Below the pieces are notes generated by a model. That model saw nothing but the letters and a program-made list of their open reading frames with translations. It had not been told where the DNA came from and made no database searches. Below, piece after piece: positions 1 through 42,190 of a stretch of 47,546 nucleotides of DNA. Position 1 is the stretch's first letter. Every line of letters starts with the position of its first letter. The position numbers were made by a program, and so were the translations under genes. The stretch lies in the IMG/VR virus record IMGVR_UViG_3300032073_000051, positions 1-47,546 of that record; one strand, given 5' to 3'. This DNA is from a virus.

Positions 1-127
1 TAATGGATACATTAGTTGAAGAGGGTGTCATTGAAGATGACCATTATGATTTTGTTACTGAGATTACCACAGAGTTTGGTGGTATTAATGATGACAACTA
101 TGTTGTTGTAGAAATAAAGGGAGAAGA
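1..127. repeat. Exact 127-nt repeat of 41663-41789
   Basis: The first 127 bases are identical to 41663-41789. The first mismatch is base 128 (A here, G at 41790). An exact match of 127 bases beginning at base 1 of the sequence is what a de Bruijn assembler using k=127 leaves at a contig end. It suggests circular closure rather than a biological terminal repeat. That reading is inference; the identity is seen directly. Confidence 0.9.
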
Positions 128-143
128 ACATGTCACTAAATAA
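1..143 (+). CDS. RusA-like Holliday junction resolvase, C-terminal fragment (5' cut by window edge)
   Basis: The reading frame is open from the window edge to a TAA at 141-143. It encodes the same C-terminal 46 residues as the complete gene at 41398-41805, apart from an Ala to Thr change near the end. Visible residues include the VIEDDHYDFV segment, typical of RusA-family endonucleases, which cleave Holliday junctions. Its stop overlaps the start of the next gene. The truncation is a contig-edge effect, because the full gene appears in the second lap. Confidence 0.85.
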   Translation, partial: MDTLVEEGVIEDDHYDFVTEITTEFGGINDDNYVVVEIKGEEHVTK

Positions 144-528
144 AAGCAAGGACATTAAAGAGATGCGTAAGTTTGATGTTGACCTAGAGTTTGGTCAGCA
201 GTGGGAAAAGTATGTAGATGAGTTGTTCTCTGGTGCTAAGAAGTGTGAGATTAAAACAGAGAGAGACACATGGGCCAAGACCGGCAACATATGTATTGAA
301 GTTGAAAGCTATGGTAAGCCATCAGGGCTAGCCAGCACAGAGGCTGATGTTTGGGTACACAATCTAGTTAAAGACAATGAGTTGTGTGCTAGTCTTGTGT
401 TTAATACAGACAAGCTACGCAAAGTAATCGAAGAGATGAAACCTTTTACAGTCTATGGTGGTGACAACAAAGCATCTAAGCTACACCTAGTAGATATAAC
501 TAAACTACTTAATGCTATCGCAACCTAG
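130..528 (+). CDS. Putative PD-(D/E)XK-type nuclease/resolvase-like protein (lap 1 copy)
   Basis: A 132-residue protein starting at the ATG after GGGAGAAG. Around residues 38-60 it carries an E-x-K element (CEIKTERDTW) followed by a strand (NICIEVES), the usual core of small PD-(D/E)XK nucleases and archaeal-type Holliday junction resolvases. It lies directly after a RusA-like resolvase and overlaps it by 14 nt, so a role in DNA junction or end processing is plausible. It differs from 41792-42190 by one residue (Thr to Asn near the C terminus). It ends converging with the methyltransferase gene, overlapping by 14 bp. Catalytic assignment is inferred from the motif alone. Confidence 0.65.
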   Translation: MSLNKSKDIKEMRKFDVDLEFGQQWEKYVDELFSGAKKCEIKTERDTWAKTGNICIEVESYGKPSGLASTEADVWVHNLVKDNELCASLVFNTDKLRKVIEEMKPFTVYGGDNKASKLHLVDITKLLNAIAT

Positions 529-1159
529 TAATTAACAAGGCATTGCTTCCAGCAGTCCTAACAACACTAAAACCTGTGCCGAGTATAGACTTAACAAAAT
601 TTTCTATTTCGGCATGGGTAAATCCTTTCTGAAAAGTTCCCTTGCCTTTTGAAATAACACCATCCTGATAAGGAATAGGGTTTACTAAAGAATTTAAGTC
701 AGTATCTTTTCTAGTAAGAATAACTGCTTTACCACCCACCTCTAAACTCTTGCCTATAGTTTGAACAGCCTCTACTCTTTCAGCCATTGGTAGTACATTT
801 AACACAGCATTGCTTATAACACCTTTATACTCATTAACTATTTGATTTGGTGAAGTGTATGTAGGCACAAAACCTTTCTTAGCATAAGGCTCAAAAGAAT
901 CAAAGCCAAACTCTTTAGTAGCTATGCCCAATCCAGCACCATAATCTAGTATGTCTGAACCCTTAACACCTTTAAAGTGTTTGTCCATTACCTTCCTGTA
1001 TGTTGCTATAGTGTTAGGCACTTGAGTGTCTCCGGACTTGCTCAGGTCATAGCCCTGCTCTGCCATTTCTATGTCATTGTCTATGCTTTTCTGCATCTCA
1101 GGAAACACTTGTGTCTCCATGAATCCATTACCTGTACCCATTGCACATACCTTAGGCAT
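515..1159 (-). CDS. Class I SAM-dependent methyltransferase-like protein (lap 1 copy)
   Basis: 214 residues. Seen: motif I (DILDYGAGLG, around residues 69-78) for SAM binding, an acidic post-motif strand (FDSFEP) and a motif-IV-like stretch (VISNAVLNVLP), followed by GKSLEVGGKAVILTRK, the usual late strand of class I methyltransferases. The N-terminal 45 residues (MPKVCAMGTGNGF and onward) are outside the catalytic fold and well conserved between the two laps. The gene ends the late operon, immediately after the large internal virion protein (stop and start overlap). The substrate is unknown; DNA, a virion protein or a host component are all possible. The identity of the fold is fairly sure, the role is not. 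Confidence 0.75.
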   Translation of the reverse strand: MPKVCAMGTGNGFMETQVFPEMQKSIDNDIEMAEQGYDLSKSGDTQVPNTIATYRKVMDKHFKGVKGSDILDYGAGLGIATKEFGFDSFEPYAKKGFVPTYTSPNQIVNEYKGVISNAVLNVLPMAERVEAVQTIGKSLEVGGKAVILTRKDTDLNSLVNPIPYQDGVISKGKGTFQKGFTHAEIENFVKSILGTGFSVVRTAGSNALLITRLR

Positions 1160-4100
1160 TAGTCATCTCCTATTGCTTCTGCACCTAGAGCACCAAGACT
1201 ACCTCTAAGTATTAAATCATAAAATTCTTCAGGTCCTTTAGCCATTGTACCTGCAAGACCCTCACCATATAGAGATGCTATAAAGTCATCAAGAGTACCA
1301 ACAACAGGACCACCCATGTATGAGGCCAGTGAAGTCTCACCAACCAATGGTATACCAATAGCACCTACTAAATCAAGAGGGTCACGCTCATAGTCACTAC
1401 CCCTAATCTCATCTTTAATTGCCATAGCTAATGCAGCAGCACCTAGTGCTGTTCCAATCGCAGCTAGAGTAGACATTTGACCCATCAGGTCTGCTGTACA
1501 ACTTTTTGGATTCATCTTTCTTATTGCTCTTTTAGCAATTGTATTGCCAAACAATATAGGAAAAGATTTTAATTGTGAGAACAATTGATAGTCAGGGTTT
1601 GACATCCAAAGTGGTCTGTTAGTAGCAAGTGGTTCAAGAGCAACATCAGTTATCATCTTACGCATCCAAGGCAACATCAAATCTCTTACTCTTGTTTGTG
1701 TACCATCACTCTTTGTTATAATTGTGTTGAGGAAATCATCATTGATTATGTCAATCTTATTTCCACCCGCTCTGTATATAGAAGCAAAGTCTTCTATGGT
1801 CATACCATTTTCTCTAAGCTCTGACTCTAATCTCTTTCTTCTAGCAGGCTTCATTCTTTTTAGTGCCTTAGCCTCGCTCTCTATTCTTTTAAGTGCAGCA
1901 GTTGCAGCCCATCCACGAACAAAGTTAGTGTACTGAGTTAAAAACAAACCAGCAGGCATCCTAAAGAATACATTTACAAATCTATTAGCATCACCTGCAA
2001 ACATCTTCTCAGTTCTTTCTGTATTCTTAGGGTCTAAAGCAAATCCTGTGAGCCTAATCAAATCTCTAGCAAAGTTTGATGTAGCACCCTTACCAACACC
2101 ACCTGAATAAAGACTACGCTTAATACCTGCAAGAGCATGGACAGCCATGGTAGGTGCAGCCTTTAATGTGTTAGCAATACCATTCCTTTGTATTACCCAC
2201 GCAGGTTCTGTGATAGAAGATATGGTAGCCATTCCAAGATACTTAACTGTAGCTACTGCTGCTACTTTTCTCATCAGGTCTTGTCTTGCTCTGCCTGCAT
2301 CATCCTGAGGTCTTTTAAATGTGTGGTGTACAGCATCATACAAGTTCCACATTTGCTGTGCATCCTTGTTTCCTATTACCTTATTCTTTAGTAAGTAGTT
2401 AATGTCTTCATTTAATCTGTTGGCTTTGTCTGAGCCAAACGCTTGTGCGGATGCAAGTCGTGTAGATGTATTCATCAAGTAGTCATTGATAGAAGACATA
2501 GGACTCTTGCTTCTAAACTCATCTGGAATTCTACTAAACCTAGCGTCTCTTTGTTTTTCAAATGATGGTCTGTCTACACCAGTTCTATTGTCTGAACCTC
2601 TTATCTGCTCTGATGTCATTATTGCTGGGTCTTGTCCATTAAGCACTGCATTAAGTATGTCTTGCTTAATAACATCATCTGTTATTCCAACACCCTTCTG
2701 TCTATTACCATTACTGTCTATGTAGCTTTCACCTAAGGTCTCCAAGAAACGCTCAGGGTTAGCCTCAACTGCTTCTCTGTCCCAGCCACGAGTCAAGTAA
2801 TCTTTTTGGTATCCAATCTTTAGACCATCCTTACCTAATGTTTTAGATAAAGACTTATAAACATTGTCATAGTTTTTTCTAGTGGCAGCAATGTCATTAT
2901 TTAATTCTTTAAACTGTTCTTCACCAAGTTGTTTTCTAACTTCGGCTGCAAGAGCAGGGTCAATCTTTTGTTCCATACCTTGTCCAAAGTACTTGTCAAT
3001 GTTTTGACCTACCTTGCTGCCCATCTTACCTACCAGTGGATAAGAGCTTTCCCACTTGTCTCTTATGTTAGCAAACGGTACAACAAACTCACTGATGTTT
3101 AAGTTCTTTAACGCATTAAAAGAAAGTTCTGATTGAAATTCTCCTGTGCCACTTTCGGCAGGAGCAAATCTTCTTAGTGTTCTGTCAAGACGATAGTATG
3201 CCTCACCAGTCTTGGTGTTTGCACGCTGTCTTTCTATCATGTCAGTAGACCTGTTGAGCAAGAAGTCTGTAGTTCCTGTCTTTAGGGCTTGTAGTTTAGT
3301 TTTAGGAAGTCTAGTAAAGTCTACTCTATTAGGTATTACATCTTCGACAGGTATTAGTTCTTTTATTTTAGCATCTAGTTCAGGTCCTTCATACTTGTCT
3401 AGAAGTTCTTGGTATTGTTTGTCGTAGTCTTTTACTCCTACAGCAAACTCATCGCCTGCTTTTTGTAGCTCGCCTAGGTTATAAGCATCTAACCCACGCT
3501 GTGCTTGCTTGGCTTCTCTTTTATTCTGAGTAGCATCTTTGTATCCAGAGATAGAACCAAATGATGTACCACCTGCAAAACCTGCTGCTGATTGTCCTAA
3601 TGTCTCATCCCAACTTAAGTCTTTTCCTTTTGTTTTAGATGTGAGTTCAGCTATTATGTTTTGAGTACCCTCAGTTCCTGCTTCATACAGTCCAATAGCT
3701 GCAGACTTTTTAAGTCCAGTGAAGAATGCATTTGCAAACTGAGTCTTTTCATAGTTGTTTAGTTTACTAGCCCACTGAGTCAGCTGCTCTTTGACATCTA
3801 TCTTAGAGCCGGGTGTAAATCCTTTAGCTACCTTACCGGGAGCAATAGAGTCTAGTGCTGTGTTAAGTGCAGTTGCAAAAAGAAGATTGGCTTTCTCTCC
3901 TGCATCAAAGTCTTTTACTTCTTTGCCTGCATTTTTTACATGTGTTCTTCCAACATCATCTAGGTTCAATAGACCACGAAACAAGCCAGCAGTTGCTATG
4001 GTTGCTCCAACACCAAGACCTGCCACTGCTGCTGCTACTGATGCAGCTACTGTAGCACCCATGCTTGCTGCATTTTCTGATGCTTTTTCAAGTGCCCAAC

Positions 4101-4431
4101 CTACCTTATCCCAACCCTCTGCTTCCAAAAAGCTAGTGTCATACTCAGGCTGGTAATCTTTTTTTCCTAGTTCACCAGATTTTTCTAGATGATTACCCCA
4201 GTCAGATAAGAAAGTACTAGTCCCTAGTATTTCATCAACAGTCTGAAGAGAGCCACCAAATTGTATTTTAAAATTATCCCAGCTAGTAGCAAGAGAGTCA
4301 TTCTTTTTAGATGGTCCGAATGGGTCTCCTGAAACACCAGCAAAGGGGTCTGTTGACATACCAGCAAAGGGGTCTCCTCCACTGTTACCAAACAAATCCT
4401 CTTCTTCTTCTAGACCAAACAAATCAGCCAT
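1159..4431 (-). CDS. Large internal virion / DNA-ejection protein (lap 1 copy, 1090 aa)
   Basis: At 1090 residues this is the longest protein in the window. The N terminus is acidic and carries repeated D-P-F-A-G/D-P-F-G elements. Residues about 100-150 are Ala/Gly-rich and hydrophobic (ASMGATVAASVAAAVAGLGVG), a likely membrane-active segment. The middle is charged and helical, and another Ala-rich hydrophobic stretch (IGTALGAAALAMAIKDEIRG) lies near the C terminus. Size, hydrophobic segments and position at the end of the late operon resemble internal core/ejection proteins of T7-like and marine podoviruses. I see no transglycosylase motif. The start follows AGGAGG. A diverged copy lies at 42821-46078. 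Confidence 0.6.
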   Translation of the reverse strand: MADLFGLEEEEDLFGNSGGDPFAGMSTDPFAGVSGDPFGPSKKNDSLATSWDNFKIQFGGSLQTVDEILGTSTFLSDWGNHLEKSGELGKKDYQPEYDTSFLEAEGWDKVGWALEKASENAASMGATVAASVAAAVAGLGVGATIATAGLFRGLLNLDDVGRTHVKNAGKEVKDFDAGEKANLLFATALNTALDSIAPGKVAKGFTPGSKIDVKEQLTQWASKLNNYEKTQFANAFFTGLKKSAAIGLYEAGTEGTQNIIAELTSKTKGKDLSWDETLGQSAAGFAGGTSFGSISGYKDATQNKREAKQAQRGLDAYNLGELQKAGDEFAVGVKDYDKQYQELLDKYEGPELDAKIKELIPVEDVIPNRVDFTRLPKTKLQALKTGTTDFLLNRSTDMIERQRANTKTGEAYYRLDRTLRRFAPAESGTGEFQSELSFNALKNLNISEFVVPFANIRDKWESSYPLVGKMGSKVGQNIDKYFGQGMEQKIDPALAAEVRKQLGEEQFKELNNDIAATRKNYDNVYKSLSKTLGKDGLKIGYQKDYLTRGWDREAVEANPERFLETLGESYIDSNGNRQKGVGITDDVIKQDILNAVLNGQDPAIMTSEQIRGSDNRTGVDRPSFEKQRDARFSRIPDEFRSKSPMSSINDYLMNTSTRLASAQAFGSDKANRLNEDINYLLKNKVIGNKDAQQMWNLYDAVHHTFKRPQDDAGRARQDLMRKVAAVATVKYLGMATISSITEPAWVIQRNGIANTLKAAPTMAVHALAGIKRSLYSGGVGKGATSNFARDLIRLTGFALDPKNTERTEKMFAGDANRFVNVFFRMPAGLFLTQYTNFVRGWAATAALKRIESEAKALKRMKPARRKRLESELRENGMTIEDFASIYRAGGNKIDIINDDFLNTIITKSDGTQTRVRDLMLPWMRKMITDVALEPLATNRPLWMSNPDYQLFSQLKSFPILFGNTIAKRAIRKMNPKSCTADLMGQMSTLAAIGTALGAAALAMAIKDEIRGSDYERDPLDLVGAIGIPLVGETSLASYMGGPVVGTLDDFIASLYGEGLAGTMAKGPEEFYDLILRGSLGALGAEAIGDD

Positions 4432-5540: not shown

Positions 5541-7700
5541 TTATCTACCCCCTACCAATTGAAAGTTGGGAGGTCCGTAGCTAGTATATCCCGGTGCTCC
5601 ACCCGGACTAGCAAACACAGTAGGTGCTGGTGTTGGTCTAGGAGCTGGTGGTCTAAATATGCTAGGTATACTAACTGTAACTGGGGCTGGTTTTGGGTTG
5701 TCATCTACTCCTAAATAGTTTGAACCAATCATCATGTCATCTGCCAGCAATCCTTTTTTAAACATTTCATACATTTCTTTTCCTTCTTGGTTTCCACTGT
5801 CTTCATTAATAAAAGAAGGTAAAGGCTGTGGATTTACAACAGGCTGAACAACTGGATTTGCAACAGCATCTTGATAAGCTATTTCACTAGGAGACATATC
5901 AAGTGTAAATGGATTAATCTGTATGTTTCCAGCATAACCAGTTGTTGTTGCTGGTGGAGAAACTGCTTGAACAAATCCAGCGTTAGCGTTACCAGTATTA
6001 CCAGAACTAATAAAATCATAACCATATTTAAACAATTCATCAAAGCCAACTTTAGGAGTTGGTGAGTAATTGTCACTAGGATACGTCTGTCCAAGGTCTA
6101 TTGTAATACCATTCTGCGACATAGCGTCTAGGTCTGACTGTGTTAAGTCTCCTAAAGGAGTTTTTACTACAATCTCTTCATCCTTTGGGTCATAAAATAT
6201 ACCACCCGGCTCAAACAACTCAGGGTTTGTTCCCTTAGCTTGTTCTTTTGGAGTCATGGGTTTAGATACAATTAAGTTGTCTTCGTCATATGGGTCACTT
6301 GTGGTTGTTACAAGGTTAGAACCATCCCCATAATCAGCAGGAAAACTAGGCATGAAAGTCTGATTTGATTGTACTAAATCTATTTCTGGCACAGTTCTTG
6401 GGTCTACATATATACCTCTGTATTGTTGTGTCTCTTCATTAGGATTTCTCATAATGTTATTAGGTAAAGAACCACCTACCATCTGGTTGGCTGTTTTAAA
6501 ATTACCTTGATTAGATTGAGAACCACCATAAGCAAATGCACCATCATCATTAGGATTCATGTCATACGAGCCTTCAAACACTTGCTCTTCACCACCTATC
6601 ATTGTAGGAGATGTCATTGTGTCATATATACTAGGTCCAACTGGGCTCATAGCATTGTTAGCACCTACTGTATACTGCGTGCCATATATACTAGGTCCAA
6701 CTGGGCTCATAGCATTGTTAGCACCTACTGTATACTGCGTGTCATATATACTAGGACCACCAGTAGGGCTAAATCTTTCCATTCTAGCATTATCAAATCT
6801 AGCTTGGTCTGCTGCACTTATTGTTCCGTTGTTTGTATAGTTAGGTAATCCAATGTCTGGTCCTTGGTCAGCTTGGCTTACAAGAAAATCAGGATTCATA
6901 CCATTAAATCCCGGCATGCTGGCTTGCTTAGTTGAACTTACTTCTGTTCCTGTTCCGGGGAATAATGTGCTAGGTGCATCTCCGGGAGCAATTCCCATTT
7001 CAGCTATTGTCTCAGCATAAGTTAAATCATTGCCCCCATTGCCAGTTCCAGTGCTATTGCTAGTGTTGGTGTTAGTGTTATTGCTAGGAGGTATCTGTGG
7101 AACTCCATCTGGCATAGTCACAGGTGGTAAAGTAATAGCAGTGTCTGCAACTCCCGGCTCAACAAACCCTTCACCAAACTGTCCTTCATAATAGAGGTTA
7201 GGACCCGGAGGTGTACCATACACACCATAATCCATAGGAAGTCCTTGACCATATGTATACTCAGGAACTCCACCCGGTCCTTCGTAGTTAAACAAAGATG
7301 CGTTGTTAAATGCTTCCATGCTTGGGTTGTATATAGTGCCTGATGGTGTACGCTGTCTTAAATCTTGTGACAAGAAAGGGCTTGAAGTAGTTGCAGTATT
7401 ATTGGCAACAAAATCAGGACCAATGTTTCCCGGTCTAGGTGTTACATTAGAATCAGTTTCAAAATCTTCTGGAAACATGGCTATACTAGAGTTGTAAGGA
7501 ACTCCATCTAGACCATACTTCCATCCTGCGTCTGCCATCTCTGGAGTTATAGTAGTAGGTCCTTTAAACTCGTCTTTAAGTGAATCAAACATGTCGTTTA
7601 TTTTGTAATCAACATACACATCAGTTGCATAGTTTTTAACAGGGTCAATTACATTGTCACTTAACCATTCCGTTCCAGTGTGAAATATATTATGTGCCAT
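5541..7700 (-). CDS. Large low-complexity virion-associated protein with 20-residue tandem repeats (719 aa)
   Basis: The 719-residue protein is rich in Asn, Pro, Gly, Thr and Ser, with few predicted helices. It begins MAHNIFHTGTEWLSDNV and contains two tandem 20-residue units (GPSIYGTQYTVGANNAMSPV type) plus a partial third near the middle. The C terminus is Pro-rich (PAPRPTPAPTVF). No known catalytic motif is visible. Its position between injection-type proteins and its composition suggest a structural or adhesive virion component. The start follows AAGGAGAATAA. Confidence 0.55.
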   Translation of the reverse strand: MAHNIFHTGTEWLSDNVIDPVKNYATDVYVDYKINDMFDSLKDEFKGPTTITPEMADAGWKYGLDGVPYNSSIAMFPEDFETDSNVTPRPGNIGPDFVANNTATTSSPFLSQDLRQRTPSGTIYNPSMEAFNNASLFNYEGPGGVPEYTYGQGLPMDYGVYGTPPGPNLYYEGQFGEGFVEPGVADTAITLPPVTMPDGVPQIPPSNNTNTNTSNSTGTGNGGNDLTYAETIAEMGIAPGDAPSTLFPGTGTEVSSTKQASMPGFNGMNPDFLVSQADQGPDIGLPNYTNNGTISAADQARFDNARMERFSPTGGPSIYDTQYTVGANNAMSPVGPSIYGTQYTVGANNAMSPVGPSIYDTMTSPTMIGGEEQVFEGSYDMNPNDDGAFAYGGSQSNQGNFKTANQMVGGSLPNNIMRNPNEETQQYRGIYVDPRTVPEIDLVQSNQTFMPSFPADYGDGSNLVTTTSDPYDEDNLIVSKPMTPKEQAKGTNPELFEPGGIFYDPKDEEIVVKTPLGDLTQSDLDAMSQNGITIDLGQTYPSDNYSPTPKVGFDELFKYGYDFISSGNTGNANAGFVQAVSPPATTTGYAGNIQINPFTLDMSPSEIAYQDAVANPVVQPVVNPQPLPSFINEDSGNQEGKEMYEMFKKGLLADDMMIGSNYLGVDDNPKPAPVTVSIPSIFRPPAPRPTPAPTVFASPGGAPGYTSYGPPNFQLVGGR
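6622..6756. repeat. 60-bp in-frame tandem repeat (2 units plus a partial)
   Basis: Two 60-bp units (6622-6681 and 6682-6741) are nearly identical, and a partial third runs to about 6756. The period is a multiple of three, so each unit adds 20 residues to the 719-aa protein. Near-identity at nucleotide level indicates recent duplication or ongoing homogenisation, so copy number may vary between strains. Confidence 0.9.
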
Positions 7701-13552: not shown

Positions 13553-15009
13553 TGTAAATCCATTAGTTTGTTATGTAGTATTTCATTAGCAAGTCCGTTT
13601 CTTAATCCTCTTTTATTGTCGGGTATGTCCTTGTCTAAGTATATGCCTTTGTCTTCATAAAAAATACCATCTACAAGTAACTGTGTATTGTAACTATTAA
13701 AGCCTGCATTGAAGTTAAGTAGTGTAAGTATAAGGGCCTGTAGCTTTTGTTGCTCTTCTAGTGATGCAGCCTCACCCATTTCTACTGCAAGATTCTTTAG
13801 TTTGTTGCTAATAATCTCACGCATCTTTTGTTTCTTACTAGCTTTCTTTTTAGTTTCTACTAGCTTTGGCTCTTCAACAACTTCTACTGCTACTTCTTCT
13901 TGTTGAGGCTCTTCCGTTGTTTGTTCTTCTTGTACGGGTTCTTCTTCCGGCTCTTGCTCATCTAGTTCTTCCTCCGTAGGTTCTTCAATAGTTTCTTCTT
14001 CTACTTCAGGCTCTAGGAATTCTTCTAGCTCTGCTTCTAATTCTTCTATTAACTCTTCTTGTGCTAGTTCTTCAAATACAGTTTCTATTTCAACTAGAGC
14101 TTCTTCTATTGTTGCAGGTGTAAAGTTTTCCAAAGGTTGTATGTCTATAATTTCAAATACAGGAGGCTCTTCTATTACAAATATTTCCTCAAACTCTTCC
14201 TCTTCTTCCCATACCTCTGGTTCTTCTGGCTCTACATATTCATCTATGTAAGCATCACTCCATCCATCACAACCGTAATCATACAAAGGGTCAAGTGCAC
14301 ATTGTTGATTATACACATTATCAGCATAGACTTGTGGGTAGTATAAACAACTTATATGACTGTCTGGTATTACACTGCATACACTCTCTCCGCTTGCTAT
14401 TTCTACTGGGTCTGCTTGTTGACTATCCCAGTATATTGCTCCATTCTGATTAGGTGCATTATAGAACCATTGTTCATATTCACCTGCACTTAAATCTCCA
14501 ACTACACCTACTGTTACCCCGTGATTCTTTATATGTACTTGTTCGTAATTTATTTCTATGTTACCCATTGGGTATATTGTCAAGTCAAATGTATTGCTTG
14601 TGTTTCTGTCGTAATACTCTGACAAATCTTTCCACATATACTTCTGGTATGTTTCATCACCTTGTGTATAAAATCTACCTATACCTGTGTCTATTAAGTC
14701 AGTATGCCAAGGCATAATAGTGTAATGAAACCTTACACCTGTAGCACCACTTGCAAAATCTTGTCCACTACAGCAAAGACCATCGTGTATATAACCAGTG
14801 CCATCCACATCAAGGGGGTCAAGAAAACCCACAACACCATTACTGAACATAAAACTAGTGACATAACTATTTCCATAAAAAGGAAAAGTAAAGTCAAGGG
14901 GTACTTCAATCCATCCATCATCGCTAATCTGGTGCTCAACTATCTCAGGGTCAGATAACGAGGACAGCGAGAAGGATAACGCCAAGAATGCCACTAACCA
15001 ATTTCTCAA
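13540..15009 (-). CDS. Exported NIDO-like beta domain protein with Glu-rich C-terminal half (489 aa)
   Basis: The frame begins at TTG (15007-15009), six bases after GGAG, giving a signal peptide MRNWLVAFLALSFSLSSLS. The adjacent part (FTFPFYGNSYVTSFMFSNG) fits a nidogen-like (NIDO) extracellular domain: beta strands, conserved aromatic/Gly turn, VVGFLDP. After about residue 260 comes a strongly acidic Glu/Pro-rich tract (EEPEVWEEEEEFEEIF and onward), then a basic helix. Signal peptide plus adhesive domain suggests cell-envelope or virion-surface localisation. The TTG start overlaps the end of the upstream gene by 59 bp. Confidence 0.65.
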   Translation of the reverse strand: MRNWLVAFLALSFSLSSLSDPEIVEHQISDDGWIEVPLDFTFPFYGNSYVTSFMFSNGVVGFLDPLDVDGTGYIHDGLCCSGQDFASGATGVRFHYTIMPWHTDLIDTGIGRFYTQGDETYQKYMWKDLSEYYDRNTSNTFDLTIYPMGNIEINYEQVHIKNHGVTVGVVGDLSAGEYEQWFYNAPNQNGAIYWDSQQADPVEIASGESVCSVIPDSHISCLYYPQVYADNVYNQQCALDPLYDYGCDGWSDAYIDEYVEPEEPEVWEEEEEFEEIFVIEEPPVFEIIDIQPLENFTPATIEEALVEIETVFEELAQEELIEELEAELEEFLEPEVEEETIEEPTEEELDEQEPEEEPVQEEQTTEEPQQEEVAVEVVEEPKLVETKKKASKKQKMREIISNKLKNLAVEMGEAASLEEQQKLQALILTLLNFNAGFNSYNTQLLVDGIFYEDKGIYLDKDIPDNKRGLRNGLANEILHNKLMDLQWQK

Positions 15010-15541
15010 GAAATACTCCTCTATTCATATTAGAAGCCGGCTGTTTAGGTGGAATCTTCTTAGGGTTCAGTCTCCACTCTTTTGTAGCTTCTTGTCCTAT
15101 TAATCCCTCACCTGTAGTCGGTGAAAAAATCGGGCAGGGAGTCCCGGCAAATTTCATTGCGTCATACACGCTTCTCGTTTGGCACATGAGTGCAACTGCT
15201 GCAACCTTCATACCCATATCATAGAGTACCTTTGCATTCTTAAGTCTCATACAGTTCTCATCTGAGTAAGCCTGTCCTGTACTGATACCTAGTATCTGTG
15301 TCTGTACTGCTCCACTAACTCCTACCATACATAAGTCACTATTACTTGCGTTAATGCTAGGACTAATTGCACTAGGTGGGTTTGTTCTTATTGTACTTTT
15401 AGTATCTGTACTTGTTGTTACTGTACTATTGCTTGTACTGTTTGTAACAATTGGGTCAGCAGCTTTTGCATTAATAGGTGTAAATAGTACAATAGCTACT
15501 ATAATTATTCCTATGATTAAACCTATTATTCTTTCTTTCAT
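14951..15541 (-). CDS. Exported Cys-containing protein with terminal membrane segments (196 aa)
   Basis: A 196-residue protein with an N-terminal signal peptide/anchor (KERIIGLIIGIIIVAIVLF then INAKAADP), a Thr/Ser-rich linker, several spaced cysteines (SDLCMVGVSG, SDENCMRL, ALMCQTRS, AGTPCPIF) likely forming disulphides, and a C-terminal hydrophobic tail (SGILGVILLAVLVI). It looks like a periplasmic domain anchored at one or both ends. It is coupled to the NIDO-like gene. Function unknown. Confidence 0.6.
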   Translation of the reverse strand: MKERIIGLIIGIIIVAIVLFTPINAKAADPIVTNSTSNSTVTTSTDTKSTIRTNPPSAISPSINASNSDLCMVGVSGAVQTQILGISTGQAYSDENCMRLKNAKVLYDMGMKVAAVALMCQTRSVYDAMKFAGTPCPIFSPTTGEGLIGQEATKEWRLNPKKIPPKQPASNMNRGVFLEKLVSGILGVILLAVLVI

Positions 15542-15551
15542 TTACGTTTGT

Positions 15552-16160
15552 TCATAAATAAATTTGACTATCACTACTATCATTACCTACTAATCCATAT
15601 GGTATTGCGTTAAAAGCTATAGAATGTCTTACAATGTTTGATTTATTTGTTTCAATCATGTGATTGACTTCACTTGGAAAAATAATAATGTCTCCATCAG
15701 TTGGCTCGTAACTCCATTTTCTGCTGTTATAAACATTCCATTCTGTTACTTTTGGTTGTATATTTTGTGTTTGGAAATTTTCAAAAACTATATCTCCACA
15801 ATTTTTATTAGTTTGTACATATAAAACACCACTTAACATACAATTGTTATGATTATGAAATTGACTTTTTTCGCTTGGTTGTATAATTGTTGCCCATGAT
15901 GTTGTTATTTTAAAATCGTTAACATACTTTAACTCATTATTTGCAAACTGTTTTAATTCATTTAATATAGTATCTTTTATAAATTTTAATTCAGGGTTTT
16001 CTAATATGTATAAAAACTCATCATTATTGTTTTCTTCATCACGATTATTTTGTGATTTTCTTGTTTTACCTTCAATTAATTTAACAATTTTTTTCGTATC
16101 AATATTTAATTTATTATAATAAATTGGTTTGCTAAATAATGGTGTAATAACAGGTGGCAT
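15552..16160 (-). CDS. 2OG-Fe(II) oxygenase, PF13759-like (first of three)
   Basis: 202 residues. Seen: the metal-site region QFHNHNNCMLSGVLYV (H102, H104) and a distal FPSEVNHMIE element supplying the second His (about residue 167), followed by RHSIAFN whose Arg could bind 2-oxoglutarate. This matches the phage/marine 2OG-Fe(II) oxygenase family with an H-x-H/N...H core. Such enzymes hydroxylate proteins or nucleic acids; the substrate is unknown. The codon composition is more AT-rich than the surrounding genes, hinting at separate acquisition. The ATG overlaps TAATG with the upstream oxygenase gene. Confidence 0.75.
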   Translation of the reverse strand: MPPVITPLFSKPIYYNKLNIDTKKIVKLIEGKTRKSQNNRDEENNNDEFLYILENPELKFIKDTILNELKQFANNELKYVNDFKITTSWATIIQPSEKSQFHNHNNCMLSGVLYVQTNKNCGDIVFENFQTQNIQPKVTEWNVYNSRKWSYEPTDGDIIIFPSEVNHMIETNKSNIVRHSIAFNAIPYGLVGNDSSDSQIYL

Positions 16161-16738
16161 TATTTAAATTTATCACCTTGAACCCAAGCTACTAGTGACA
16201 TTCTTTTACCTTCTGTAACTGGAGTTACTCTGTGTTCTAAAAAAGAAGGGAATGTAATAATTGCACCTTTGTTCTTTACCCTTATTTTATCTTCAGGTGA
16301 AAAATCTATCCCTTTAATTTCAAAATCACCACCTTTATAATCTTCACGATTAGACAATTGTACTGTCATACTTATTTTTCTATCTGACATAGTTGGATTT
16401 CCCCACCATGTGTCTATATGCCAATCGTAAAATCCATTTTCTGTACCATCGTATAAAGTAAATTGTACATCTTCAACACTTTTTATATCAAAACCATATG
16501 CCATTCTATTAGATTCAACTGCATATTGATATAACAGATTAAATATTGAATTATGTTTTTGTTTGTCTAAAAACGCAACATTTGATTTTCTTACTTCATT
16601 GTCTTCAGTAAATGCAATACTCTGTCCATTTTCTTTGACAACCCCACGATGCAATGGCTCGTCTTGTAAAACCTGTACTATTTGGTCTACTGTTTCATGA
16701 CTTAAAGCGTTATAAAAATTCCAACAGTTATTTCTCAT
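16160..16738 (-). CDS. 2OG-Fe(II) oxygenase, PKHD/prolyl-hydroxylase-like (second of three)
   Basis: 192 residues. Seen: H-x-D metal motif WHIDTWW (H107, D109), a long internal strand-rich segment (KISMTVQLSNREDYKGGDFE), the distal His in FPSFLEHRV (H169) and a following Arg (R179) for 2-oxoglutarate. These are the full facial triad and co-substrate residues of the PKHD-type hydroxylase family. A strong ribosome site (AGGAGGAG) precedes the ATG, so expression may be high. The substrate is unknown; a protein (for example capsid or fibre) or host target are options. Confidence 0.8.
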   Translation of the reverse strand: MRNNCWNFYNALSHETVDQIVQVLQDEPLHRGVVKENGQSIAFTEDNEVRKSNVAFLDKQKHNSIFNLLYQYAVESNRMAYGFDIKSVEDVQFTLYDGTENGFYDWHIDTWWGNPTMSDRKISMTVQLSNREDYKGGDFEIKGIDFSPEDKIRVKNKGAIITFPSFLEHRVTPVTEGKRMSLVAWVQGDKFK

Positions 16739-16761
16739 ATTTTCTCCTCCTATAAATATGT

Positions 16762-17307
16762 TTAAACAAACGTGTAAACAACAACAATACGCCTACCTTC
16801 TTCTTTACGATATTTGATTGCATGGTTTAATCTTGTAAAACTAATACCATGAAATGCTTTTGGTGTAAATTCTTGAGTGACATTTTCATTTTCATCAGCA
16901 ATTAATAAACGTGATGTAGGGCAATCAGTTAAATACACAAGTAATTGTCGATGTGGAAAATCATGGTCATAATGAAAACCTGATTGTTCTTTTGTGCATA
17001 GTCCAGTAGAGTTTATACACATTCTGTATATTTCTTTATATTCTATATTATGTTTTACACAAAAACCATCTAATATAGATTTAAAAAAATGGTAATAAGA
17101 TGAATTTTGTCTCTCTTCAGGTGGTACATTTTCTGCTCTATTTGCTAACAAATGAAACATAAACCCATAACCATCGTCATATAATTGATGGTCTGCGTAG
17201 TACCACGGAAAAGCATCTGTTAACACTTCTTGTTCAACAAAAGTTTTTTGATGTTCAGTAATAAAACTATCGTCTATAATTATTTTATCTTCAGCGATTG
17301 CATCCAA
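16762..17307 (-). CDS. 2OG-Fe(II) oxygenase-like protein (third of three)
   Basis: 181 residues. Seen: H-x-D in SGFHYDHDF (H112, D114), a helix/strand stretch (RQLLVYLTDCPTSRLLIAD), a distal His in FTRLNHAIKY (H162) and Arg172/173 close by. The residue order fits the double-stranded beta-helix 2OG dioxygenase fold, though this member is the most divergent of the three. It is immediately upstream of a small zinc-binding protein gene. Substrate unknown. Confidence 0.7.
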   Translation of the reverse strand: MDAIAEDKIIIDDSFITEHQKTFVEQEVLTDAFPWYYADHQLYDDGYGFMFHLLANRAENVPPEERQNSSYYHFFKSILDGFCVKHNIEYKEIYRMCINSTGLCTKEQSGFHYDHDFPHRQLLVYLTDCPTSRLLIADENENVTQEFTPKAFHGISFTRLNHAIKYRKEEGRRIVVVYTFV

Positions 17308-17326
17308 TGATTTCTCCTCGATATTT

Positions 17327-17482
17327 TTACCACTTGTCTACAGGACAATTTTGTTTTTTAAATTTTACTTTTAAGGCAACTATGCATCCACATTTAGAGC
17401 ATGTACCACCTGTAAACTTAAATTTATAATACTCGCAATTTATACATATATTTAATCTTTCTTGACCAAAACTAACTGCCAT
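17327..17482 (-). CDS. Small DUF6171-like zinc-binding protein (51 aa)
   Basis: ATG at 17480-17482, stop TAA at 17327-17329. The 51-residue translation begins MAVSFGQERLNICINC and carries C-x-x-C (CINC), C-x-x-C-x-C (CSKCGC) and a final CP element before VDKW. Spacing and the ending match small DUF6171-type phage/bacterial zinc ribbons. It sits between a fibre-associated gene and the oxygenase trio. Confidence 0.7.
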   Translation of the reverse strand: MAVSFGQERLNICINCEYYKFKFTGGTCSKCGCIVALKVKFKKQNCPVDKW

Positions 17483-17486
17483 ATTT

Positions 17487-17834
17487 TTATGAAATCAAAC
17501 CATGATGTTTAAGTCTATTGTCAATGTATGTATTATTCTCAACTTCTGAACTAACATCATCAGGTTCTTCTGATGGTAATGCTTCTACTAATGATGCAAT
17601 ATCACTAGCATTTGCCACACCTGCTTTAATTTGTTCTTTTTGCGTGTAAAAATCAGCAGGTAAAAACCCCATAATGTAATCATTTAAAGGTGTACCTGTT
17701 AAATACAACCCATCTGCATCTCTAGGTAAATCAATGTTTAAATTATCAATTGTTTCGTTTGCATCATTGTGTACTGATATTTGTACACTTCCTAGTGTTT
17801 CGTTAAACGCTCTAATTTTGTATGAAAATGCCAT
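17487..17834 (-). CDS. Hypothetical fibre-associated protein (115 aa)
   Basis: 115 residues, starting MAFSYKIRAFNETLGSVQIS, with an N-terminal strand-rich half and an acidic, helical C-terminal half (EALPSEEPDDVSSEVEN) ending LKHHGLIS. It is placed directly downstream of the Gly-rich fibre gene, where many tailed phages encode a fibre-assembly chaperone. That role is inferred from position only. Start after a plausible AAGGAG site. Confidence 0.55.
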   Translation of the reverse strand: MAFSYKIRAFNETLGSVQISVHNDANETIDNLNIDLPRDADGLYLTGTPLNDYIMGFLPADFYTQKEQIKAGVANASDIASLVEALPSEEPDDVSSEVENNTYIDNRLKHHGLIS

Positions 17835-17856: not shown

Positions 17857-18729
17857 TTATCCTTGTGAACCATTAATTGTACCATTGCCACTCCAAGTGA
17901 CATTAGAATTTCCTGAAGTTGCCGCTCCTCCTGAGCCACCCGGTCTCGGATTCCAACCACTACCCGGATTTCCTGCCGCTCCTCCTGCCGCATATCCACC
18001 ACCTGAACCACCCGGCCCAGTCCACGTTCCCGGTGGACAACCATTTCCGTTATAGTTGTAGCCACCTCCACCTGAACCTCCTCCTGTCAGAGAACCTGCC
18101 GCACCATTTCCTGCACGTTGTGAGTAGCCACCCGGCCCGTTGCCACAGCCGCCACCGCCACCTCCTCCAGTTCCCCAGTTGCCATACGTTCCACCTGTGC
18201 CGCCTCCACCACCACCACCTGAAATGCGACCACTACTGTTATTTATAGTCATAGGATTAGATATTAATAGACCCGGCCCACCTGAAGCTCCATCGGTTTT
18301 AGTATTTCCACCTCCACATCCATACTGGTCTGACCAAGCACTACCACCGCCACCACCTGCACCAAGAATTGTTCCATTGTTTATCAAATAGGAGCTTGTA
18401 GGGAAAGAGCCACCATCAATTGTCATCGCATACGAACCTGTAGACGTACTGTAAACAGTTACACCTGAATTAATTGTAGCTTGTAATATTGCACTACCAT
18501 CCCAACCTGCTGAAGTAGCGGCAGTGCGTAGATTTACATTAGTAGTATTAGATGCAATAGTATATGTGAATATATTAGACGTTCCATAAAAATCAGCAGC
18601 AATTTGTATTTCTCCGCTTGCTGGAGCATTGCCTTTGTCGTGGTATTCACTTAACTGGTGAGGTGCTGAACCTCCATACTCAGTAGCTATGTCGTTTAAA
18701 CTTATTTGTCCACTTCCCGGTAATGCCAT
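17857..18729 (-). CDS. Gly-rich tail fibre / adhesin (290 aa)
   Basis: A 290-residue protein with the phage fibre opening MALPGSGQISLNDIATEYGG, which recurs in marine phage receptor-binding proteins. The C-terminal half is extremely Gly-rich (runs such as GGGGGGTGG interspersed with Asn, Ser and Pro). Gly-rich modules of this kind form polyglycine-helix or beta-sandwich receptor tips in T-even and marine phages. The GC-rich repeats are locally unlike the rest of the window. It overlaps the preceding fibre's stop (TAATG). Confidence 0.7.
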   Translation of the reverse strand: MALPGSGQISLNDIATEYGGSAPHQLSEYHDKGNAPASGEIQIAADFYGTSNIFTYTIASNTTNVNLRTAATSAGWDGSAILQATINSGVTVYSTSTGSYAMTIDGGSFPTSSYLINNGTILGAGGGGGSAWSDQYGCGGGNTKTDGASGGPGLLISNPMTINNSSGRISGGGGGGGTGGTYGNWGTGGGGGGGCGNGPGGYSQRAGNGAAGSLTGGGSGGGGYNYNGNGCPPGTWTGPGGSGGGYAAGGAAGNPGSGWNPRPGGSGGAATSGNSNVTWSGNGTINGSQG

Positions 18730-19970
18730 TATTTGCTCTCCAGTTTCCTAACCTTAGCAGTCAGCTCCTTAATTGCTTCAACTAATATTGCTGTCATTGA
18801 ATCATAGTGTAGTGTCTTGTACTCTTTGTCTGTGCCTGTAGCTAGTGGTAGCTTTTTAGTATTGACTGCTGAAGGCATAACCTTTTCAACATCTTGAGCA
18901 AGTAGACCTGCTGACTCTCTGTCGTTGTGCTTGTACTTGTAAGACACACCTTTAAGTTGGTTAATCTTGTCAAGTGCAAACTCTACAGGGTTAATGTCAT
19001 ACTTTAGTGTAGCATCTGAAATTGTAGTTGAGTAAGCAATAACATCACCATCAACGTGCAAATCACCATCAGCTTCTAGTCGCATTTCTTCGCCATTATT
19101 GACTACAAATCTCATAGTTGCATTGTTGTCAAATTGGATGTGGTCACCACCATCTAAACCAATGTGCGTAACTCCGTGTCCACTTAAATCACCTAGTGAA
19201 TTAGATAGTTTAGCGGCTGTTACTTGGTCATCAGCAATATGTGCTGTGTCAATTGAGCCATCTACATAATGCTCTGAGTTAATAGTATCGTCAGCTATCT
19301 TAGCACCTGTTACTGCATCTGCGGCAATAGCTGCTGTGTCAACTGCATTGTCTGCAAGCTCAGAAGCTGTAATTGCGTTAGCAGCTATTTGAGTAGCTGT
19401 AATAGTATCATTTACTAATTTACCTCCAGTAATAGTTGCTGATGCAATATGTGCATTGTCAATACTTCCATCAGTATAGTGTTCACTATCAATAGCGTCA
19501 TCAGCAATCTTAGCACCTGTCACTGCATCAGCAGCTAACGAAGATGTGCCTACTGTAGTCCAATCTAAAACACCTGAACCATTTGTAAGTAACATTTCAT
19601 TAGCATTGCCATCATCATTAGGAAATACTAGCGTGTAACTAGCACCAGCTGAATGTGGTGGACTCTGCAATTTTATTCCGTGTGAGTTTTGTGAGCAGTT
19701 TAGCTGTATATAACCATCTGCTGAACTACCATCACCCTTAGCAACTGGTGAATCAAGTTGTGTTTGTATTGCACTTGTTACACCATCAACATAATTAAGT
19801 TCAGTGTCTGTTGCTGTAATTGCACCATCTATGCTAGGGAAAGTAGTTTTCAGTACATTTTTAATTCCTCGTATATGGTCATCACCCTCAGAGACATTAT
19901 CACCTGCTGCTGGGTTAGACGAGTTTAGGTCATCTATATATTTAGTACCTGTTAAATCTTCTAAAGCCAT
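18729..19970 (-). CDS. Tail fibre with C-terminal peptidase S74 intramolecular chaperone domain (413 aa)
   Basis: The N terminus (MALEDLTGTKYIDDLNSSNP, then EGDDHIRGIKNVL) is a fibre-anchor type shared with the 206-aa fibre. The middle has repeated AADAVTGAKIADD-like units of a trimeric shaft. The C terminus carries the S74 self-cleaving chaperone: a Ser-Lys dyad in ISDATLKYDI (S318, K323), then SAGLLAQDVEKVMPSAV and a terminal coiled coil (ILVEAIKELTAKVRKLESK). The chaperone trimerises the shaft and is released by autocleavage. Confident domain call. Confidence 0.85.
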   Translation of the reverse strand: MALEDLTGTKYIDDLNSSNPAAGDNVSEGDDHIRGIKNVLKTTFPSIDGAITATDTELNYVDGVTSAIQTQLDSPVAKGDGSSADGYIQLNCSQNSHGIKLQSPPHSAGASYTLVFPNDDGNANEMLLTNGSGVLDWTTVGTSSLAADAVTGAKIADDAIDSEHYTDGSIDNAHIASATITGGKLVNDTITATQIAANAITASELADNAVDTAAIAADAVTGAKIADDTINSEHYVDGSIDTAHIADDQVTAAKLSNSLGDLSGHGVTHIGLDGGDHIQFDNNATMRFVVNNGEEMRLEADGDLHVDGDVIAYSTTISDATLKYDINPVEFALDKINQLKGVSYKYKHNDRESAGLLAQDVEKVMPSAVNTKKLPLATGTDKEYKTLHYDSMTAILVEAIKELTAKVRKLESK

Positions 19971-19980
19971 TGGTTACTCC

Positions 19981-20472
19981 TTATGATGATGCAGCAGTTA
20001 CTGTTACTGTTACCTGTAGTGTGTCACCAGAGATTACAGCACGAGATGAACTAAAGTCTACTACACCGTATAGTACACCCGCAGTTCCTGTTGCTGCTGT
20101 GTTTAAAAATGCACCTGCTACTGTAGCTGTGCCTGTGATTGAAAAGTCTACGCTTGTTCCGTTAGTCATGCTACCGGATGAAGCTGCACCTTCTGTCCAT
20201 TCTTTTCTGTTACCAGAGTAACCAGTTAGTTCTGCCCAACTAGAATGTGAAGACATAGTGTCAGCAGCAGCTGGAGTACCAGCTCCTTTAAGACCTATGT
20301 ACCAAGTTGTTACTTGTGTTCCTGCGTGGAACTGTGTGTCAAGAATATGATTCAAACCTACTGTAGTGATTAGGTTTTTCTTATCCTCTTCCCACTTTAC
20401 GTTTCCGTCTTTGTCAAGGCAAGTAACTTTCCAATAGTTAGCCAGCCCTAAATTTACATTATCTAATGCCAT
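19981..20472 (-). CDS. Structural protein, probable tail/fibre component (163 aa)
   Basis: The frame extends upstream, but the ATG at 20470-20472 has a strong AAAGGAGAG site, giving MALDNVNLGLANYWKVTC. The 163-residue product is beta-rich, Thr/Ser/Ala-rich, and ends DTLQVTVTVTAASS. It lies between two structural genes in the head-to-fibre interval. Probably a virion protein (for example a fibre or baseplate-like component); no specific family recognised. Confidence 0.6.
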   Translation of the reverse strand: MALDNVNLGLANYWKVTCLDKDGNVKWEEDKKNLITTVGLNHILDTQFHAGTQVTTWYIGLKGAGTPAAADTMSSHSSWAELTGYSGNRKEWTEGAASSGSMTNGTSVDFSITGTATVAGAFLNTAATGTAGVLYGVVDFSSSRAVISGDTLQVTVTVTAASS

Positions 20473-20500
20473 TGTATTTCTCTCCTTTAGAGTATTATTG

Positions 20501-21319
20501 TTATTCGTCTGGGTCACTTACCTTAGTCCAAGTAGAACCAGTGTCTTCTGCGATGTCATTCCACAAGAAGTTGCTTGATGAAGAAGTACCCGATGTTGCT
20601 GACAAGGTAGCACTCTCTTCAAAGTTTATATTAAATTTCATATCTTGCTCGCTCTCTAGAGTGCCAGAAAAAGGCATAACTAAAGTAACTGTAGCACCAA
20701 CTCCCATTTCTGTAGGCATTAGTGCTGATGCTATTTTTTGTATGTCTTCTGCGTTTAACTTGTTCAGCATTACCTGAGTTATTTCCGCAGTTACATTTAA
20801 TTTAACAGGTGGTGCATATCCCCAATAAGTTGTAGCAGATGCCCACGTTGATGTGTCTAAATCCCAAGTAGTTGTTCCAGCTAAAGGAATATTTACTGTG
20901 TTGGCAAAAGTTATTGAATCAACAAAAACCTGATTTCCAAGACCAGAAGCTCCTTCTGTAGAAGCTAGAGTTATTTCTACTGGATATGTACTGTTTCCTC
21001 TTTCTGCTAAAGTGCTTGCCATAGCAAACTCTGCAACACCAGCCAATGCAAAACCAACAGTAGGAACGCTCATTCCACTATTCTGTGTGAATGTGGCTGT
21101 TCTTGGTACAGCTATGTTAGGTACTCTTCCCCAAGCCTCTTGCTGTGATGTTAATGAATCCCAAGTATCAGTGTTTGTATTCCAATAATCTAAGTGGTCA
21201 TCCGGTGTGCCACTTGTCATATTAAACTCAGCAGTATGTGCGTATGAAGAGTTTAAATATGTTATGTTTACATCAGCCCAAGTTCCTGTCTGTGTATTCC
21301 AAAAATATTGGTAAGACAT
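20501..21319 (-). CDS. Structural protein, tail-associated (272 aa)
   Basis: A 272-residue protein with repeated W-D/T-x-x-x-x-W features (YFWNTQTGTWADVN; YWNTNTDTWDSLT; TTWDLDTSTWASATTYW). These repeated aromatic units suggest a beta-repeat virion protein of marine podoviruses. It follows the SU10-type adaptor (stop and start overlap at 21319), so it is likely a tail or adaptor-ring component. Function beyond virion membership is not visible. Confidence 0.6.
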   Translation of the reverse strand: MSYQYFWNTQTGTWADVNITYLNSSYAHTAEFNMTSGTPDDHLDYWNTNTDTWDSLTSQQEAWGRVPNIAVPRTATFTQNSGMSVPTVGFALAGVAEFAMASTLAERGNSTYPVEITLASTEGASGLGNQVFVDSITFANTVNIPLAGTTTWDLDTSTWASATTYWGYAPPVKLNVTAEITQVMLNKLNAEDIQKIASALMPTEMGVGATVTLVMPFSGTLESEQDMKFNINFEESATLSATSGTSSSSNFLWNDIAEDTGSTWTKVSDPDE

Positions 21320-41401: not shown

Positions 41402-41805
41402 AGATAAAGGGAGTGCTTCCATTACCCACATACACAAAGGGAAGAGGAGACAAGAAGAAAACAAATCTTCTTAGTCTTAATGTATTTAGAAACCTACACC
41501 ATTTTTCTAAGAACAAAGTCAAGCAAGACTATGCTGACCTAGTAAGAGAGTTTGTAAAGACACTACCTAAATACAAAACAATACAGCCTAGCTACACACT
41601 GTACTTTAATAACAACAGAAAGAAAGACTTGGACAACTATACGTTTCCTATGCACAAGTTCTTAATGGATACATTAGTTGAAGAGGGTGTCATTGAAGAT
41701 GACCATTATGATTTTGTTACTGAGATTACCACAGAGTTTGGTGGTATTAATGATGACAACTATGTTGTTGTAGAAATAAAGGGAGAAGAGCATGTCGCTA
41801 AATAA
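41398..41805 (+). CDS. RusA-like Holliday junction resolvase (135 aa, complete copy)
   Basis: 135 residues, GTG start overlapping the DUF3310 stop (GTGA). Seen: PLPTYTKGRGDKKKTNLLSL, the DLDNYTFPMHKFLMDTLVEE stretch with the D-x-D-N acidic core, and VIEDDHY. These are the RusA metal-binding residues. Cleaves branched DNA during replication and packaging. Nucleotides 41663-41805 are repeated at 1-143. Confidence 0.85.
   Translation: MKIKGVLPLPTYTKGRGDKKKTNLLSLNVFRNLHHFSKNKVKQDYADLVREFVKTLPKYKTIQPSYTLYFNNNRKKDLDNYTFPMHKFLMDTLVEEGVIEDDHYDFVTEITTEFGGINDDNYVVVEIKGEEHVAK
41663..41789. repeat. Exact 127-nt repeat of 1-127
   Basis: Identical to bases 1-127; see that entry. Marks the closure point between lap one and lap two: the preceding sequence (up to 41662) is lap-one unit; the following 5.8 kb are a diverged second version of 128 onward. 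Confidence 0.9.
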
Positions 41806-42190
41806 AAGCAAGGACATTAAAGAGATGCGTAAGTTTGATGTTGACCTAGAGTTTGGTCAGCAATGGGAGAAGTATGTAGATGAGTTGTTCTCTGGTGCTA
41901 AGAAGTGTGAGATTAAAACAGAGAGAGACACATGGGCCAAGACCGGCAACATATGTATTGAAGTTGAAAGCTATGGTAAGCCATCAGGGTTAGCCAGCAC
42001 AGAGGCTGATGTTTGGGTACACAATCTAGTTAAAGACAATGAGCTGTGTGCTAGTCTTGTGTTTAATACAGACAAGCTACGCAAAGTAATCGAAGAGATG
42101 AAACCTTTTACAGTATATGGTGGTGACAACAAAGCATCTAAGCTACACCTAGTTGATATAAATAAACTACTTAACGCTATCGCAACCTAG
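41792..42190 (+). CDS. Putative PD-(D/E)XK-type nuclease/resolvase-like protein (lap 2 copy)
   Basis: 132 residues, identical to the copy at 130-528 except one residue, though scattered synonymous changes are seen. The E-x-K core (CEIKTERDTW) is preserved. It converges with the methyltransferase gene, with the same 14-bp overlap as in lap one, so the arrangement is conserved between strains. Confidence 0.65.
   Translation: MSLNKSKDIKEMRKFDVDLEFGQQWEKYVDELFSGAKKCEIKTERDTWAKTGNICIEVESYGKPSGLASTEADVWVHNLVKDNELCASLVFNTDKLRKVIEEMKPFTVYGGDNKASKLHLVDINKLLNAIAT

Follow-up and report, generated by a model that had tools for sequence, protein, structure and literature searches.

Genes for oxygenases dependent on Fe(II) and 2-oxoglutarate (2OG) rank with the commonest 'auxiliary' genes that marine phages carry, and the published guesses at their role concern host metabolism and DNA repair. 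Pelagiphages have been described as carrying co-located 2OG-Fe(II) oxygenases, nearby 'although not adjacent' and partnered with ferrochelatases (Wittmers et al. 2022, PMC9599517), the cyanophage S-SCSM1 as carrying 24 2OG-Fe(II) oxygenase genes, with functions stated to be uninvestigated (PMC9602691), and phage proteins resembling EGLN3, of phrog_61, have also been reported (PMC12774648). Here, the IMG/VR virus record IMGVR_UViG_3300032073_000051 was analysed over its whole length of 47,546 nt (positions 1 to 47,546, hereafter the window), in which positions 15,552 to 17,482 hold three consecutive oxygenase-fold genes, designated OxyA, OxyB and OxyC, and a small zinc-ribbon gene, ZnR. The original prediction on this DNA had set the trio against a background of single phage dioxygenases, which understates the literature just cited. 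Clustered phage oxygenases are indeed already published, and what is new here is a tandem trio at an adhesin-linked slot, together with the reassignment of phrog_274.

Three oxygenase-fold proteins of different families

No Pfam oxygenase family was matched by OxyC, whose PHROG match is phrog_274, a group carrying, together with cyanophage homologues, the name 'DNA endonuclease V'. The AlphaFold2 model of OxyC (mean predicted local distance difference test score, pLDDT, 93.2) has as best solved match the 2OG-Fe(II) oxygenase 6n1f (Foldseek E 1.2e-6; VIA Z 15.9, 2.8 A over 166 residues), followed by PiuC, PHD2, AlkB and OGFOD1 as next-closest folds, VIA being run on Foldseek candidates only and against fold libraries other than AlphaFold DB. 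H112, D114 and H162, the ligands proposed from the start, are invariant in 39 of 39 aligned OxyC sequences, and R173, with R172 at +10 from the distal His where the basic residue for the 2OG 5-carboxylate is expected, is nearly invariant (90% or more). Fold model and alignment together indicate that OxyC is a 2OG-Fe(II) oxygenase fold with a conserved predicted HxD...H...R site, for which the phrog_274 name is wrong. DNA endonuclease V, as a candidate identity of OxyC, was rejected on the oxygenase fold, the conserved site and the lack of a PF03013 match. A listing of cyanophage genes includes denV (PMC3037559). The genuine T4 DenV (NC_000866) matches phrog_1183 and PF03013 only, and not phrog_274; it is unrelated to OxyC and shares with it nothing but the name given to phrog_274 and its cyanophage homologues.

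At least 319 OxyC relatives were encoded among the IMG/VR candidates examined, of which the best 80 were kept. A search of 84,980 species genomes for cellular relatives, made with one conserved pattern and hence of limited sensitivity, retrieved one locus only, on a contig of a Maricaulis metagenome-assembled genome (13,533 bases, the same size as the viral contig behind locus L061). When OxyC was compared with the OxyB-type profile by hhalign, kinship was not supported (probability 9%), and it consequently rests on fold and motif.

OxyB was placed by sequence in PF13640 (E 1.2e-14) and phrog_61. The predicted ligands H107, D109 and H169 are invariant in 25 of 25 aligned sequences, as is R179, located about 10 residues after the distal His. 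Matches to solved PKHD-type hydroxylases of the PiuC/YbiX kind (3dkq, E 1.8e-6; 9ghl, PiuC) and to the NCBIfam PRK05467 models point to a PKHD-type-like 2OG oxygenase fold; OxyB differs from the PKHD equivalogs in scoring 67.7 bits at best against a cut-off of 143, and in having no iron-uptake context.

For OxyA, family membership was found with both PF13759 (E 6.7e-19; 68.6 bits versus a cut-off of 27) and TIGR02466 (67.9 bits, above the curated cut-off of 62.5). H102, H104, H167 and R178 are invariant in 21 of 21 aligned sequences, R178 being the basic residue about 10 positions after the distal His, so that OxyA reads HxH...H where OxyB and OxyC have the HxD/E...H facial triad. The OxyA model (pLDDT 85.9) has 3bvc and 2rg4 as top solved matches (Z 20), two marine bacterial proteins of the same PF13759/TIGR02466 family that are approximately 17% identical to OxyA, and 3bvc has the same HxH in its aligned part. 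The next matches are bacterial prolyl-4-hydroxylase (P4H), alone and with EF-Tu, and PHD2, including its complex with a HIF peptide (Z ≈16). On this modelling OxyA has an oxygenase fold with a non-canonical HxH...H site, and because of that site its catalytic activity cannot be assumed.

By their models, OxyA and OxyC have the double-stranded beta-helix (jelly-roll) fold, the match to solved 2OG oxygenases extending along most of each chain; OxyB is assigned to the fold by sequence. By their profile matches the three proteins are non-identical and in three different families. The claim of three consecutive, distinct and apparently intact oxygenase-fold genes was thus borne out by families, conserved residues and the OxyA and OxyC models. 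That each protein keeps its metal ligands proved right for OxyB and OxyC, and for OxyA only if a non-canonical site counts; the structural check proposed for a lost metal site found fold and site kept in OxyC, and the fold kept with a non-canonical site in OxyA. No further oxygenase was found in the window with the oxygenase profiles used.

The fibre-to-gp196 slot and recurring oxygenase islands

In minus-strand transcription order, the genes of the region (Table 1) are gp178, the S74 tail fibre, the Gly-rich GP38-like adhesin, U115, ZnR, OxyC, OxyB, OxyA and gp196. OxyA and OxyB overlap by one base, 23 bp separate OxyB from OxyC, and a GAGGAG sequence lies upstream of the OxyC TTG start.

Table 1. 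Genes between and including the two conserved borders of the variable slot, by position in the window
Feature	Position (nt)	Strand	Description
gp196	14951-15541	-	conserved gene; downstream border of the variable slot
OxyA	15552-16160	-	202 aa; PF13759/TIGR02466 (phrog_81) oxygenase-fold protein; H102-x-H104 ... H167 ... R178
OxyB	16160-16738	-	192 aa; PF13640 (phrog_61) PKHD-type-like putative oxygenase; H107-x-D109 ... H169 ... R179
OxyC	16762-17307	-	181 aa; TTG start with ribosome-binding site; phrog_274; H112-x-D114 ... H162 ... R173
ZnR	17327-17482	-	51 aa; DUF6171/phrog_13558 small zinc-ribbon-like protein; C-terminus CPVDKW
U115	17487-17834	-	115 aa; position matches a 115-aa protein of L095
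Gly-rich GP38-like adhesin	17857-18729	-	290 aa; Gly 29% overall and 57% in its densest 60-aa stretch; proposed substrate
Tail fibre with Peptidase_S74 (chaperone of endosialidase) C-terminus	18729-19970	-	413 aa
gp178	19981-20517	-	conserved gene, PF23140 Gp80-like (fibre); upstream border of the variable slot

Gly-rich GP38 adhesins are receptor-binding tips. The gene found here scores 23 bits with PF05268 (phage tail fibre adhesin Gp38), below the gathering score of 25, and is for this reason termed only GP38-like. In sister phages, the interval from gp178/S74 to gp196 is a swap region, with one oxygenase in L095, two in L096, at least three in L099 (where the contig is cut) and none in L094 and L098. 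A gp178-based survey of this slot took in 81 sequences, namely the window and 80 loci, skipping those with no gp178 or with less than 2.5 kb after it; 37 rows remained and were merged to 30 clusters, in 17 of which the slot runs into a contig end. With a GP38-type or Gly-rich adhesin, five clusters had an oxygenase and three did not, while without such an adhesin none had one and 22 did not (Fisher 3.9e-4); a hand count of the 13 complete-slot clusters gave 4, 1, 0 and 8 in the same order (P = 5/715 = 0.007). The association is also strongly polarised: of 25 loci with both a Gly-rich gene and an oxygenase, 22 have the nearest pair on the same strand, and in 21 of these the oxygenase lies downstream (sign test 1.1e-5, not corrected for relatedness). 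The original prediction had placed the cassette next to a fibre gene: the association with fibre and adhesin genes stood, but the fibre genes are not directly beside ZnR, as U115 comes first, then the GP38-like gene and then the S74 fibre, and specificity for one adhesin class, seen within the phage group of the window, holds by post hoc definition only. The L095 counterpart of U115 has a weak match (4.1e-5) to a PHROG named 'tail fiber assembly'.

Related loci were collected by keeping the best 80 per query and were dereplicated by blastn; the control loci were other phages. The oxygenase profiles were built from open reading frames (ORFs) of the OxyC loci, so that oxygenases of background loci may be under-detected. 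In the fetched flanks of the 47 non-redundant OxyC loci, one or more further oxygenases are encoded in 41 cases and two or more in 39 (41 and 37, respectively, when a family labelled 'ferrochelatase' is excluded), and in 26 of 47, with the same exclusion, an oxygenase directly abuts OxyC. Other oxygenase ORFs take up 38% of the bases within 1 kb of OxyC and 9% at 4-6 kb, versus 0.8% in gp196 loci, and 143 of 156 lie on the same strand. Islands of this kind recur in marine phages, and the trio is an example of them. Flavoprotein genes resembling Trp halogenases occur in the same islands, in 18 of the 43 OxyC loci that span 5 kb or more; the one tested (L009:3866-5377) has strong Pfam support (E 3e-97). 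Two cultured pelagiphages show the same order: HTVC023P has Gly-rich gp60-62 (up to 47-50% Gly per 60 residues), then gp63-64 and then the oxygenases gp65 and gp66, overlapping by one base, and in HTVC033P Gly-rich gp62 is immediately upstream of the gp61 and gp60 oxygenases, which overlap as well.

Some members of these islands deserve separate mention. The phage 'ferrochelatases' (HTVC023P gp67, L330:7258-7878; HTVC033P gp58, L331:7465-8109; L005:149-721) gave no Pfam ferrochelatase match. In the two pelagiphage proteins and 21 further members, H109-x-D111 ... H162 is invariant (23/23), and a relative that carries a fused PF13640 domain matches PhyH (E 1.3e-5) and, weakly, AlkB-type models. 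These proteins may themselves be 2OG oxygenases; if so, the published idea of a ferrochelatase partner would change. In 9 of the 39 non-redundant OxyC loci, a gene of a small family lies immediately upstream of the oxygenases; the member L086:2558-3106 has no Pfam or PHROG match. HTVC023P gp64 (L330:5505-6008), placed in this family by eye, weakly matches an oxygenase profile (1.6e-5) and may be a degenerate oxygenase.

Composition, the zinc-ribbon gene and the rest of the record

The cassette is the AT-richest part of the window, in agreement with the claim that it is AT-richer than its neighbours: its guanine plus cytosine (GC) content is 28.8%, where windows of equal length average 39.3% (sd 2.8; rank 4 of 913), and the lowest-GC windows listed all overlap it. 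At third codon positions (GC3), OxyA, OxyB, OxyC, ZnR and U115 range from 0.14 to 0.19, versus 0.23-0.44 in the other 17 genes measured; this low GC3 is consistent with a recent acquisition of the block from U115 to OxyA from AT-rich relatives. A promoter and terminator scan of the region found sites no more numerous than in shuffles.

ZnR was confirmed as a DUF6171-like zinc protein adjoining the trio (E 5.1e-9; 36.8 bits versus a gathering score of 27; phrog_13558). Its role as a specific partner of the oxygenases was rejected, as an oxygenase is present in only 11 of the 52 non-redundant ZnR loci that span 5 kb or more; ZnR relatives are encoded in at least 483 viral stretches of many contexts. 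DUF6171/phrog_13558 proteins ending in CPxxKW (loci L172-L250) are widespread in viral contigs, often near tail fibre genes, and no mention of DUF6171 was found in the open-licence PMC literature.

Head and portal proteins share approximately 38-46% identity with their counterparts in LUZ24/tf-type podoviruses and in pelagiphage HTVC106P, which makes the phage a marine, podovirus-like, distant relative of the broad LUZ24/tf-type group. The ends of the record (1-4306 and 41663-45968) repeat each other in the same orientation with 88.2% identity over 4.3 kb, likely because the assembly of a circularly permuted genome ran on beyond its start and into a divergent strain, in which case the genome unit would be ≈41.7 kb, or through a diverged duplication. 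A 719-aa ORF (5541-7700; 11% Pro, 11% Gly) contains an internal repeat offset by 60 bp (81 bp, 96% identity) at 6619-6759.

Possible roles of the trio and comparison with described systems

The reading that we favour, though with somewhat less than even chances, is that the oxygenases are protein hydroxylases travelling with the receptor-binding module and modifying the adhesin or the fibre. They would be produced together with fibre and adhesin by late transcription; each enzyme would bind Fe(II) and 2OG in its jelly-roll barrel, activate O2 and hydroxylate a residue in an extended peptide, as the peptidyl hydroxylases PHD2 and bacterial P4H do. Side chains of adhesin or fibre would be oxidised during synthesis, with altered stability, stacking or receptor contact, and oxygenases and receptor-binding module would move as one unit. 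Peptidyl hydroxylation leads among the possible chemistries because of the fold matches, and adhesin or fibre among the substrates because of gene context. A bolder version, which we regard as doubtful, sees exchangeable receptor-binding modules with their own chemistry: oxygenase arrays, with halogenases in many relatives, would decorate the Gly-rich adhesin post-translationally, by hydroxylation or in other ways, enzymes and sequence would jointly set host range and adhesin stability, OxyC would be a phage-enriched peptidyl hydroxylase family and OxyA would work via HxH...H. The multi-step hydroxylation originally proposed fared less well, as the homologous slot holds zero, one, two or at least three oxygenases of differing families, making a fixed three-step pathway unlikely. 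A classical collagen-like Gly-X-Y substrate was rejected, the only long run in the genes checked being a glycine-dominated stretch in the GP38-like protein; phage collagens are said to be without prolyl hydroxylation (PMC3368898).

Several observations weigh against hydroxylation of the adhesin or fibre. The candidate substrate comes from gene context, OxyA lacks the canonical acidic ligand, and the likeness of the OxyC fold to AlkB equals that to PHD2. In the slot test, the adhesin definition was set post hoc and many slots were cut by contig ends. When a strict Gly threshold was applied locus by locus, neither the gp196 loci (1/4/2/48, p 0.25) nor the gp178 loci (1/0/2/11, p 0.21) showed a significant association; among the ZnR loci the direction was the opposite, none of the 11 with an oxygenase having a Gly-rich ORF (0/11/12/29, p 0.05). 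The gap from Gly-rich gene to oxygenase was not shorter than under random placement (P 0.155), Gly-rich adhesins without oxygenases exist (L094, L283, L285), and the oxygenase slot of L252 has the adhesin N-terminal motif and lacks the Gly repeats. In view of the null Gly tests, the gap test and the oxygenase-free adhesins, the co-variation may reflect module exchange within one phage group rather than an enzyme-substrate pair.

The enzymes might instead be directed at the host, hydroxylating a host protein such as a translation factor, as with P4H and EF-Tu, or altering 2OG levels and with them host nitrogen or energy signalling. Modulation of 2OG/NtcA has been proposed for cyanophages (PMC3037559), and P4H bound to EF-Tu (4iw3) is among the structural neighbours of OxyA; we nonetheless consider this rather unlikely, because the position after the fibre, the co-variation with an adhesin class and the mixed families at one slot are unexpected for a metabolic sink, and several different families of low similarity suggest specific substrates. 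Cell-surface or small-molecule chemistry, in which the oxygenases, with halogenases and other enzymes, would modify envelope glycans, lipids, a peptide or a metabolite, for instance to block superinfection, seems improbable to us. The frequency of halogenase-like genes in OxyC loci speaks for it, as do a halogenase in the homologous slot of L256, another in L009 between OxyC and gp196, and natural-product oxygenases among the Foldseek matches of OxyA; however, no halogenase occurs in the window, no biosynthetic partner was recognised, and the best VIA matches of OxyA beyond its own family are peptidyl hydroxylases.

That the enzymes repair or modify phage DNA in the manner of AlkB or TET is, in our judgement, quite improbable. 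OxyC does have AlkB among its close fold matches (Z 14.3), and a part in DNA repair has been put forward for 2OG oxygenases of phages (PMC3037559, PMC11288001), but the genes sit in the late structural block away from replication genes, the scanned ORFs of the window include no recognised gene for nucleotide hypermodification, and the 'DNA endonuclease V' name lends no support. Slightly harder still to credit is that the genes are passengers, AT-rich cargo hitchhiking at a recombination hot spot beside receptor-binding genes with no action on the virion: the low GC3, the variable presence and number at the slot and the absence of a distance effect would fit, whereas the active-site residues are kept in all aligned family members and the association is with one adhesin class and not with the slot as such.

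The genetic link to receptor-binding adhesins provides a specific, testable candidate substrate for some of the commonest marine phage genes, in a layout shared by cultured pelagiphages. Renaming phrog_274 and, less surely, the phage 'ferrochelatase' would change the reading of many marine phage genomes. Neither hydroxylated phage fibres or adhesins nor the phrog_274 name was found reported in the open-licence PMC literature.

Among described systems, S-SCSM1 resembles the window in that PF13640 and PF13759 proteins are also numerous in one phage genome; it differs in having a large T4-like genome with scattered copies, and the phrog_274 type is not one of the four subfamilies named in the text available to us (PMC9602691). 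HTVC023P-type pelagiphages are also small marine podoviruses with several non-orthologous oxygenases close together, and HTVC023P and HTVC033P have abutting pairs after Gly-rich tail proteins. Wittmers et al. (PMC9599517) use the term 'tail fiber' nowhere in their main text. The window differs from them in having three oxygenases in tandem and no 'ferrochelatase'.

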